From positions 62,001 to 126,000 of the forward strand of contig JAKPSI010000002.1 of NCBI GenBank assembly GCA_029555415.1: DNA of 64,000 nucleotides, written 5' to 3'. The translations under genes were made by a program, and so were the position numbers. The notes beneath the pieces were generated by a model. It worked only from the letters and a program-made list of their open reading frames with translations, had not been told where the DNA came from and did no database searches. Every line of letters starts with the position of its first letter. The stretch's first letter is position 1. The DNA comes from Bacteroidota bacterium. Its GTDB lineage: Bacteria; Bacteroidota; Bacteroidia; Chitinophagales; Chitinophagaceae. Shown here in pieces: positions 24,365 through 62,493 of this stretch.

Positions 24365-24370
24365 GGTTTC

Positions 24371-24410
24371 CCGCAGATTACACTGATTTTAGCGCAGATT
24401 TCGCAGAATT
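24371..24410 (+). repeat. 10-bp-period array, CGCAGATTnn family (4 units)
   Basis: Four decamers in register, most clearly CCGCAGATTA and AGCGCAGATT, followed after 3 bp by the ACGCAACG array. The same order, 10-bp array then 8-bp array, occurs at 46311-46381. Confidence 0.75.
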
Positions 24411-24413
24411 TTC

Positions 24414-24445
24414 ACGCAACGGCGCAATGACGCGGCGACGCAACG
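24414..24445 (+). repeat. 8-bp-period array, ACGCAACG family (4 units)
   Basis: Four octamers: ACGCAACG, GCGCAATG, ACGCGGCG, ACGCAACG. Preceded by TTTC like the other members. One of seven arrays of this family in the window. Confidence 0.85.
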
Positions 24446-41203: not shown

Positions 41204-41235
41204 ACGCAACGACGCAGCGGCGCAAAGACGCAACG
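41204..41235 (+). repeat. 8-bp-period array, ACGCAACG family (4 units)
   Basis: ACGCAACG, ACGCAGCG, GCGCAAAG, ACGCAACG in register, preceded by GTTTC and the lysA stop codon. Same orientation relative to its gene as at 55006-55037 and 58654-58677. Confidence 0.88.
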
Positions 41236-41267
41236 GAAATTCAGTCATTTTATCAGGTGTACTCATC

Positions 41268-46310: not shown

Positions 46311-46350
46311 GCGGATCAACGCAGATTAACACAGATTTCGCCGAATTTCA
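46311..46350 (+). repeat. 10-bp-period array, GCAGATTAAC family (4 units)
   Basis: GCGGATCAAC, GCAGATTAAC, ACAGATTTCG, CCGAATTTCA in register. The TAA stop of the beta-CASP gene plus the next C falls on the TAAC end of a preceding decamer, so the stop codon itself is in phase with the array. Flows directly into the ACGCAACG array. Confidence 0.8.
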
Positions 46351-46381: not shown

Positions 46382-46460
46382 TTTAATATGGAACTCACGC
46401 CCACTCGCGGCATTAAAGAAGTCAATTTCATCCAACACATCTCCGGCATCCCGCATGAGC

Positions 46461-46488
46461 CAGCAGCTAACAGCTAGTAGCTAGCGGC
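46461..46488 (-). repeat. 7-bp-period array, GCTnnnA family (4 units)
   Basis: On the minus strand GCCGCTA, GCTACTA, GCTGTTA, GCTGCTG. End of copy 1 of the tandem duplication. Confidence 0.8.
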
Positions 46489-46498
46489 TCGTTATTTC

Positions 46499-46530: not shown

Positions 46531-46615
46531 TTTTTTATAGAACTGAATAGCCCCCCTCACGGCTTTAACAGAAGTCCATTTCTTTCGCCAAACTACCCGG
46601 CATCCCGGATCAGCT

Positions 46616-46636
46616 GGCAGCTAACAGCTAACAGCT
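46616..46636 (-). repeat. 7-bp-period array, GCTnnnA family (3 units)
   Basis: Plus-strand units GGCAGCT, AACAGCT, AACAGCT, at the end of copy 2 of the tandem duplication. Confidence 0.78.
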
Positions 46637-48030: not shown

Positions 48031-49401
48031 ATGAAAACGTTACGCAAATTTTCCGCGATCCTGGTCCTGCTGATCCTGAGCATGGCATTCGTACCGCAAC
48101 AGGCTTCCGCACAGGGACGCGTTTCCGTGAACTTCGATCTTTTTTATAATGAGCTGTCACCTTACGGCCGATGGTTCCATAACGCACAGTATGGTGAAGT
48201 ATGGCGGCCCAATGCTGACCGTAACTTCAGGCCTTATGCCAATGATGGTCACTGGGTATGGACCGATGACGATGAATGGACCTGGTACTCCGATTATGAA
48301 TGGGGTTGGGCTCCGTTCCACTACGGTCGCTGGGATTATGACGACTATGATGGCTGGTTCTGGATCCCTGATTACGAATGGGCTCCTGCATGGGTGGCCT
48401 GGCGCAGTGGTGATGACTATTATGGCTGGGCTCCTTTAAGGCCGGGTATCAGTATCAACATCAATATCGGAGGTTATGCGCCTCCTGACTATTACTGGAA
48501 TTTCGCACCACGCAGATATATCAACGATTACCGTGTTTACGACCATTGCTATAACCCCGGAATGAACCGGAATTACCTGGGTCGTACAACGATCATACAA
48601 TTCAATAACTATGGCGGACGCCGCAATGGTATCTGGGGAAACAGTCCCCGTCGTGAAGAAGTGGAACGCTATACACATGAACGTATCAATCCTGTTTCAT
48701 TTGGTGAACATGAAAGGTTTGGAAGAAGTGGTGGTAATCAGGTTAGAGGTAACAGGGATGAGGTAAGAGGTAATAGGGAAGGGAACAGGAATTTCGGAGA
48801 TGATCGCCGTGGTTTCGGTGGCAATTCGAATCAGCCTGGCAACGGCGGAAGGAATTTTGGCAATGGTAACCGTACGCCTGTTGATCCCCAGTCTAACGAC
48901 CGCAACAGGAATTTTGGTAACGATCGCCGTGGTTTCGGTGGCAATAATGATCAACGCAATAATGATCCCCGCAATAATGGCGGCCGCAATTTTGATAATG
49001 GTAACAGGCCGCCGGTAACACCACAGGCGGATGACAGAAGGCCCGGTGGAGGCAACAGAGAACAGGGAATAGGTAATAGTGGACAGGGAACAGGTGGCAG
49101 AGAACAGGGGAATGGTGGCAGGGTGCAAGGGGGAGATAACAGACCCCGGAATGATGGCCCCGTTCGTACGTTCGGAAATGACCGCGGGAATAATGGCGGC
49201 AACAACCAACCCTATAATGGTGGCCGTTCTTTCGATAACGGAAATCGTCAGCCTTCAGCTGACAGGCAGCCACAGGCTCCCGTCAGAGAACAGTCAACTG
49301 TTGGCAGAAGGCAGGATGCAGGACAGCAACCGCAATCCGGTAATGGGAGCCGTCAGGCTGATAACGGGAACCGTGGTGGCGGACGCGGAAGAAGATTTTA
49401 A
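48031..49401 (+). CDS. Secreted DUF6600 protein with low-complexity C-terminus
   Basis: 456 residues. Signal peptide (FSAILVLLILSMAFVPQQASAQ), then a Trp/Tyr/Asp-rich domain (about 30-160: YGRWFHNAQYGEVWRP, GHWVWTDDDEWTWYSDYEWG, DGWFWIPDYEWAPAWVAWR) matching DUF6600. The C-terminal 230 residues are rich in Gly, Asn, Arg and Gln, with repeated FGNDRRGFGGN and NGGRNF units. Two stretches of this region are encoded by uninterrupted 7-bp DNA arrays (48734-48789 and 49053-49143), giving 7-residue protein repeats such as REQGIGN and REQGNGG. Function unknown; probably surface-exposed. Followed by a strong terminator. Confidence 0.82.
   Translation: MKTLRKFSAILVLLILSMAFVPQQASAQGRVSVNFDLFYNELSPYGRWFHNAQYGEVWRPNADRNFRPYANDGHWVWTDDDEWTWYSDYEWGWAPFHYGRWDYDDYDGWFWIPDYEWAPAWVAWRSGDDYYGWAPLRPGISININIGGYAPPDYYWNFAPRRYINDYRVYDHCYNPGMNRNYLGRTTIIQFNNYGGRRNGIWGNSPRREEVERYTHERINPVSFGEHERFGRSGGNQVRGNRDEVRGNREGNRNFGDDRRGFGGNSNQPGNGGRNFGNGNRTPVDPQSNDRNRNFGNDRRGFGGNNDQRNNDPRNNGGRNFDNGNRPPVTPQADDRRPGGGNREQGIGNSGQGTGGREQGNGGRVQGGDNRPRNDGPVRTFGNDRGNNGGNNQPYNGGRSFDNGNRQPSADRQPQAPVREQSTVGRRQDAGQQPQSGNGSRQADNGNRGGGRGRRF
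48734..48789 (+). repeat. 7-bp-period array inside the DUF6600 reading frame (8 units)
   Basis: Eight heptamers in exact register, most fitting GGTAAnA or GGGAnGA. It is translated without a stop in the used frame although TAA and TAG occur in other frames. Confidence 0.8.
49053..49143 (+). repeat. 7-bp-period array inside the DUF6600 reading frame (13 units)
   Basis: Thirteen heptamers in register with consensus GAACAGG or TGGCAGG (CAG at the same offset in most). Because 21 bp equal 7 codons, it encodes a 7-residue repeat. Confidence 0.85.
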
Positions 49402-49481: not shown

Positions 49482-49508
49482 ATTATGTAGTGTATTCTAT
49501 GTTGTCAA

Positions 49509-49536
49509 TTCAAAACTCAAAATTCAGCATTCAAAA
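49509..49536 (-). repeat. 7-bp-period array, TTTTGAr family (4 units)
   Basis: On the minus strand TTTTGAA, TGCTGAA, TTTTGAG, TTTTGAA, starting 6 bp after the stop of the 1029-residue protein gene. A single TTTTGAA also occurs at about 49412 after the DUF6600 stop, in the orientation of that gene. Confidence 0.85.
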
Positions 49537-49542
49537 TTTCCT

Positions 49543-52745: not shown

Positions 52746-52821
52746 GTTGATCCCTGGAACCGGATTGAACGGATATTGATGAAACTTGATTTAGATATGG
52801 CTGAAGCCGGGTATTCAAATT

Positions 52822-52853
52822 CGTTGCGCCGCCGCGCCATTGCGTCGTTGCGT
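52822..52853 (-). repeat. 8-bp-period array, ACGCAACG family (4 units)
   Basis: Minus-strand units ACGCAACG, ACGCAATG, GCGCGGCG, GCGCAACG, preceded by GTTTC. Confidence 0.85.
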
Positions 52854-54972: not shown

Positions 54973-55005
54973 TAATGAAGTCAAAAAAATGAGCAGAACT
55001 CTTTT

Positions 55006-55037
55006 CGTTGCGTCGTTGCGCCTCCGCGTCGTTGCGT
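55006..55037 (-). repeat. 8-bp-period array, ACGCAACG family (4 units)
   Basis: Minus-strand units ACGCAACG, ACGCGGAG, GCGCAACG, ACGCAACG, starting 2 bp after the stop codon of the next gene (55040, minus strand). Confidence 0.88.
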
Positions 55038-62348: not shown

Positions 62349-62400
62349 GCAGTCACAGGATACCGGATATAATTATTAATTGTAAAAGTTGTATTATTCC

Positions 62401-62484
62401 GCGTTCATCTGCGCTAATCTGCGTTCATTCGCGTTCATCTGCGCCAATCTGCGCCAATCTGTGTTAATCTGTGTAAATCTGTGT
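62401..62484 (-). repeat. 10-bp-period array, acrCAGATTa family (8 units)
   Basis: Eight uninterrupted decamers plus a 4-base start, the clearest 10-bp array in the window. On the minus strand the consensus is ACACAGATTA or GCGCAGATTG. It begins 9 bp after the stop codon of the partial gene to its right, and its C/T-rich edge toward that gene is CTCC. Confidence 0.9.
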
Positions 62485-62493
62485 CTCCTCGCT

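Follow-up and report, generated by a model that had tools for sequence, protein, structure and literature searches.

Within genes, the period of a tandem repeat is expected to be a multiple of three (3n), and the repeat of neuO in Escherichia coli K1, which is the closest known case to the arrays described here, encodes a 7-residue motif. This coding AAGACTC repeat is phase variable, and strand slippage is the cause stated in passages of the neuO report (PMC13001214). In the same passages, the gene is of full length if its units number a multiple of 3, and 3 to 53 units were found in 64 genomes; the units are alike, occupy the gene's 5' end, and are variable within one culture. Direct repeats of TAACTGA occur in Beggiatoaceae, Cyanobacteria, and some Bacteroidetes (PMC4679880). 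Excerpts of that paper place them mostly between genes, with some in open frames and at gene ends, propose that those upstream of start codons are sites of translational control, and mention long TAACTGA arrays beside other heptamer repeats in some Bacteroidetes. For long simple sequence repeats, 7 nt was a favored unit length (Mrazek 2007, as cited in parts of PMC4679880 and PMC4692102), and the GGGNATC repeats of Xanthomonas and Nostoc form G-quadruplexes, according to a section of PMC4692102. Bacterial satellites derived from heptamers have also been described, and repeats of 3n were taken as coding in a portion of that survey (PMC6749651).

Here, we describe degenerate 7-bp arrays in a gene for a DUF6600 protein and in further genes of a Bacteroidota genome. 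As in the neuO passages, a 7-bp unit lies inside coding sequence, the frame is kept only at a suitable unit number, and a one-unit change breaks it, as in bshC of this genome. The units here are degenerate and lie in tails, linkers, and hairpins, whereas those of neuO, as described there, are alike and at the 5' end. Like the TAACTGA repeats in the excerpts of PMC4679880, the arrays consist of heptamers, are chiefly intergenic, and lie partly inside open frames; in contrast to the one fixed unit there, this genome has many units and few arrays in divergent gaps. With the heptanucleotide and GGGNATC repeats, as portrayed in the section of PMC4692102, they share a 7-nt unit, a proposed origin by polymerase slippage, an intergenic bias, and rarity between divergent genes. 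The heptanucleotide surveys, in the parts at hand, tie coding repeats to 3n units, whereas 7-bp arrays lie in frame here, and the G-quadruplex-forming GGGNATC repeats of that section differ from the present arrays, which are without such G-tracts. A literature search that took in few subscription papers found no description of housekeeping genes in which degenerate heptamer arrays leave the length unchanged, and a search for short array sequences gave no match concerning Bacteroidetes.

Results

Two 7-bp arrays lie in the DUF6600 gene

The window, i.e., the whole 64,000-bp stretch analyzed (G000:C133:62001-126000), belongs to a draft genome of 3.97 Mb in 139 contigs. An open reading frame on the plus strand (48031-49401) encodes 456 residues with a profile match to the DUF6600 domain (PF20245) at residues 39 to 138 (48145-48444; plus strand; E value of 1.6e-33); its 115.2 bits clear the curated cutoff of 27. 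Judged by name, the closest relatives in DUF6600 were from Chitinophagaceae metagenome-assembled genomes, and the nearest orthologues compared shared 57 to 64% identity. An AlphaFold2 model (23 aligned sequences; mean pLDDT of 60.5) predicted that most of the first ~240 residues are folded and that residues 244 to 452 form a low-confidence tail, with a pLDDT of <50 across nearly all of its length. This tail is rich in G, N, and R.

The original prediction had placed two 7-bp arrays, of 8 and 13 units and in exact register, inside this gene, and its coordinates and sequence were confirmed. Array A (48734-48789; residues 235 to 253; plus strand) consists of 8 degenerate units, namely, GTAATCA, GGTTAGA, GGTAACA, GGGATGA, GGTAAGA, GGTAATA, GGGAAGG, and GAACAGG, with the consensus GGTAAGA and a per-position majority of 4 to 8 of the 8 units. 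Array B (49053-49143; residues 341 to 371; plus strand) consists of 13 degenerate units, the last three of which, from 49123 onward, are weak; its consensus is GAACAGG, with a per-position majority of 7 to 12 of the 13 units. Both arrays are without any indel and the reading frame is open, so the 7-bp register is exact, and the translation reads as 7-residue repeats at both, as had also been predicted. The units are not nearly identical, unlike those of neuO-type repeats. The units were similar to GGTAAGA and GAACAGG, and neither TAACTGA nor GGGNATC was found among them. According to the model, array A spans the edge of the folded part and array B lies inside the disordered tail. The same tail holds a weak third lag-7 segment (segment C; 49284-49323; residues 418 to 431; plus strand; score of 11).

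The DNA period is not explained by the amino acid repeat

The lag-7 identity was 0.61 in array A and 0.57 in array B, and it was 0.22 to 0.41 at those reported lags that are not multiples of 7. A 7-bp period could also arise as a by-product of selection on the protein for a 7-residue repeat, combined with codon usage, and the G/N/R-rich tail and the high identity at lag 21 (0.69 in array A and 0.66 in array B) would fit such an origin. After synonymous shuffling of the codons, the lag-7 identity was 0.347 (standard deviation of 0.055) for array A and 0.379 (standard deviation of 0.047) for array B, and none of 4,000 shuffles reached the observed value for either array. Because the two stretches had been chosen by eye, the whole gene was scanned as well, with segments scored at +1 for a match and -1 for a mismatch. 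The top single lag-7 segment, with a score of 16, was equalled in 13 of 3,000 synonymous shuffles, which taken alone favors selection on the protein; the joint pattern (a score of 16 in two segments, or of at least 11 in three) was reached in 0 of 3,000. At lags 4, 5, 8, 10, 11, and 13, the gene had no segment scoring at least 11. Since the synonymous shuffles fail to reproduce arrays A and B, the outcome that would have refuted the original prediction did not occur; as predicted, the amino acid repeat leaves the DNA period unexplained, and a codon-driven repeat was ruled out as the source of the two arrays both singly and jointly. With the genome-wide excess described below also against it, selection for a 7-residue repeat is extremely improbable.

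Relatives have low-complexity tails without such arrays

Among 107 complete open reading frames in the relatives' DUF6600 set, in which those picked at L013 and L063 are far too long, no lag-7 score exceeded 11, compared with 16 in the window gene. The relatives' tails displayed, which were those of at least 90 nt, were of low complexity, with R, N, Q, G, S, T, or P in most. The relatives' loci came from two collections and contain doubles that look identical (L007/L093, L010/L097, L022/L102, and L023/L105). As judged from these sequences, the arrays appear to have changed a tail that was already of low complexity rather than to have created it. The proposal that the arrays create new disordered protein was therefore not upheld, since tails of low complexity and free of such arrays are found in relatives. 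The 7-residue repeats are probably filler that the protein tolerates, rather than elements kept for a function. A gene extended into an intergenic array was also considered and rejected; ~203 residues still lie downstream of array A and ~85 downstream of array B.

Period 7 is in excess in intergenic DNA and in genes

The genome scan covered 938,149 bp (59 loci including the window, with 13,533 N) and recorded segments scoring at least 12. Lag 7 gave 19 coding and 113 intergenic segments (132 in total), the genes being called by a simple script, with several of the 19 at probable false starts near gene starts. Coding segments numbered 0 at lags 4, 5, 8, 11, and 13, 1 at lag 10, and 15 to 23 at lags 6, 9, 12, and 15, as expected from protein repeats. 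Coding and intergenic segments together came to 10 to 15 at lags 8 and 10 and 0 to 4 at lags 4, 5, 11, and 13; these counts omit runs of N, which were included in the scan behind the window's intergenic arrays. The density of lag-7 arrays was 109 per 100 kb in intergenic DNA versus 1.8 in coding DNA. In the wide sense, these are heptanucleotide repeats, with an excess of period 7 over neighboring periods that is chiefly intergenic.

Within the 795 called genes, 14 lag-7 segments were found, compared with a mean of 1.05 (range, 0 to 3) in 20 synonymous shuffles, and 8 lag-14 segments, compared with 0.6. Lags 12, 14, 15, and 21 were also above the null, 14 and 21 being multiples of 7 and 12 and 15 being codon periods, and lags 4, 5, 8, 10, 11, and 13 were at the null. 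Pervasive 7-nt templated mutation was rejected as an explanation; the coding lag-7 identity outside arrays was 0.2444 versus 0.2428 after shuffling, a smaller excess than those at lags 4, 5, and 6.

Intergenic arrays in the window, given without strand, include one of the AATTCAA type ~105 bp beyond the stop codon of the DUF6600 gene (49507-49538; score of 13) and two upstream of a DUF4136 gene, one with AGCTA-type units (46442-46489; score of 15) and one of CAGCTAA, also found with TRF (46611-46636; score of 15). Arrays of other periods were seen as well. Degenerate intergenic ones of 10 bp, with AATCTGTGTA-like units and their kin, lie at 62400-62485, 24367-24418, and 46314-46337 of the window, and the genome has 12 intergenic segments at lag 10; arrays of 8 bp, ACGCAACG and TCGTTGCG like, lie at 41204-41236, 52821-52853, and 55005-55037, and there are 10 intergenic segments at lag 8. 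At two gene 3' ends, the upstream frame stops inside an array (L119, 11448-11479; L155, 4528-4558).

Divergent gaps held few of the 115 placed intergenic arrays (6) and convergent gaps many (33); of 96,814 bp of intergenic DNA, divergent gaps make up 28,013 bp and convergent gaps 11,108 bp. In intergenic arrays of at least 49 bp, the similarity between units was 0.741, 0.678, 0.624, 0.558, 0.505, and 0.487 at lags 7 to 42, the first value being inflated because the arrays were selected on lag 7. This steady fall with unit distance points to copying from neighboring units. In 29 of 61 arrays, the mismatches clustered at particular positions of the unit.

The fixed and variable unit positions and the uneven distribution over gap types would also suit an explanation in which the arrays are putative sites bound by a protein (or RNA) reading nucleic acid 7 nt at a time. 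They would then be built up through point mutation under selection on the nucleotide sequence, also in genes whose protein tolerates it. The genome-specific vocabulary and the repeated use of one bshC loop, with at least 4 changes on the tree (both described below), agree with it. Since the genome holds many different units, which drift along single arrays, and since arrays lie in long coding genes of unrelated role, we consider binding sites of this kind unlikely, and their construction by such selection equally so.

Coding arrays share 7-mers with intergenic arrays

The 7-mers of the arrays were compared up to rotation and strand. For array A, 0.68 of the 7-mers were found in the intergenic arrays of the genome versus 0.20 after shuffling (1 of 2,000 shuffles as high), and for array B, 0.52 versus 0.16 (0 of 2,000). 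Intergenic 7-mers were also common to the arrays in cysS, bshC, a GH9 gene (L121), and two more called genes. The array in a PSP1 gene (L116) did not share this vocabulary, and segment C, which may be due to chance, had no excess of intergenic 7-mers (404 of 2,000 shuffles as high). The idea that one DNA-level process acts both in and between genes thus gained support, from the 14 versus 1.05 segments and from the building of arrays A and B out of intergenic 7-mers. The genome's arrays shared 0.89 of their 7-mers among themselves and 0.24 and 0.15 with those of two other genera, a comparison in which the vocabularies differ in size and one other genus shares 0.66 in the reverse direction. The array vocabulary is partly the genome's own. 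A single-pattern search of the genome gave one match.

A flank resembling that of another array was found for 87 of the 132 arrays and often consisted of other short-period repeats. Such flanks, together with the shared vocabulary, could mean that ectopic recombination, a mobile element, or a trans-acting templated writer carries copies of arrays from one locus to another, with genes occasionally hit. The matches were short and varied and included overlapping neighbors, and no single element with constant flanks was seen among the flanks of the 132 arrays. The arrays of cysS, bshC, and ileS, described below, mostly leave the length unchanged, unlike an insertion. Spread between loci is therefore conceivable and yet improbable.

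Arrays in cysS, bshC, and ileS mostly keep the protein length

In cysS of this genome, an array lies between the catalytic and DALR domains (L155, 1109-1189), in a stretch of 64 residues compared with 63 to 71 for the aligned stretch in 29 orthologues. Two of these genes (L175 and L181) scored at least 12 at the same linker, with 0 of 500 gene shuffles as high for each.

In bshC, a hairpin bears an array in this genome and in 5 of 29 orthologues. In the gene here (L141, 1207-2900; G000:C1), the frame breaks at an AATTCAA array and the rest of BshC continues in another frame; the array stretch is 125 nt rather than the 132 nt of the orthologues, exactly 7 nt short, as seen in one assembly. A search of the genome with the first part of bshC gave this one match only. 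Five candidates for other genes broken at arrays were checked, and bshC alone fits. The stretch has 44 residues in 25 of the 29 orthologues, among them 4 of the 5 array-bearing ones; the other one, L214, has 58, i.e., 14 residues (42 nt) more. Length differences in 7-bp steps, which the original prediction expects at the DUF6600 arrays, are seen in bshC, through this gain and the 7-nt shortfall of this genome. Against shuffles, L204 (0 of 500 as high), L205 (1 of 500), L214 (0 of 500), and L217 (11 of 500) stood out; L213 (63 of 500) and the weaker L224, L228, and L231 had no support from the shuffles. L217 and L213 also hold segments that score 12 at other lags (lag 5 and lag 13, respectively). 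On a BshC tree of 30 rows, the array label, which includes the unsupported L213, needs 4 changes, forced by well-supported branches; shuffled labels needed 5.7 on average, and 18 of 500 were as low as 4.

A similar stretch in ileS has 36 residues in all six Mucilaginibacter sequences, the same as in the array-free L233 and L235, and 38 to 51 in the others. L019 (0 of 300 shuffles as high), L021 (1 of 300), and L080 (2 of 300) stood out, L014 was weak (22 of 300), and L017 and L029 were indistinct from shuffles (197 and 215 of 300, respectively). A linker array was also present in ABC-F genes (L005 and L007), and two compared ABC-F rows were array free. Because the arrays in cysS, bshC, and ileS are mostly at the usual protein length, they resemble in-place rewriting rather than insertion, which again goes against the creation of new disordered protein.

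Among 109 loci of relatives (1.27 Mb), 37 had lag-7 segments, 13 coding and 40 intergenic in all; lag 8 gave 7 and 12, respectively, so the preference for lag 7 is weaker there than in this genome. In two other genera (400 kb each), lag 7 was the most frequent lag, with 29 segments in one and 14 in the other; lag 14 aside, the runners-up were lag 4 (7 segments) and lag 8 (9 segments), respectively. Named isolates have such arrays too, Mucilaginibacter corticis (L021) among them. The draft state of the genome, with 139 contigs, and the single assembly behind the bshC break leave some room for an artifact of assembly or binning. With similar arrays in 37 of the relatives' 109 loci, in the two further genomes, and in M. 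corticis, such an artifact is very unlikely.

Discussion

Slippage in 7-bp steps with copying of neighboring units, filtered by the reading frame, is in our view the best explanation of these arrays and a fairly probable one. The same DNA-level process would fill intergenic gaps and make the coding arrays of degenerate heptanucleotide repeats. It would proceed in steps of 7 bp, each unit being copied from its neighbor, most simply through strand slippage in replication, and the copied units would later diverge through point mutation. In genes, only changes compatible with frame and fold would survive, and these would lie in loops, linkers, and tails. If 7 bp were lost and then 7 gained, or in the opposite order, a unit would be swapped for a copy of its neighbor at unchanged length, and such pairs of events would explain arrays in place at the usual protein length. 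We infer slippage as the simplest cause because units grow less alike with distance, bshC is 7 nt short, and L214 has gained 42 nt.

Several observations count against this slippage model. Pure local slippage predicts no shared vocabulary, and neutral drift of copied units need not concentrate mismatches as in the 29 of 61 arrays. The likeness of flanks between arrays (87 of 132) and the position of the PSP1 array and segment C outside the vocabulary are further points. The shared vocabulary, the uneven mismatch positions, and the flank matches suggest that local slippage may not act alone. One such reading, which we regard as doubtful, is a trans-acting process with 7-nucleotide steps and a partly genome-specific vocabulary, which would write heptamer patterns in place, mostly in a length-neutral way, into intergenic DNA and permissive loops of housekeeping genes. 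Just as doubtfully, the cysteinyl- and isoleucyl-tRNA synthetases and BshC would then have been hit repeatedly at the same loop across genera.

With slippage and copying of neighboring units still the preferred reading, our findings indicate that a DNA process of period 7 leaves its mark on coding sequence, both in tails and in loops of essential enzymes, and that the protein length mostly stays the same. The excess of lag 7 over synonymous shuffles offers a simple way to tell protein sequence driven by mutation from that driven by selection, and with bshC out of step, change in 7-bp steps can be tested directly in this lineage. If a trans-acting writer is at work, period-7 overwriting would change protein sequences in Bacteroidota by a route not described before, and bshC of this genome would have been caught 7 nt out of step.
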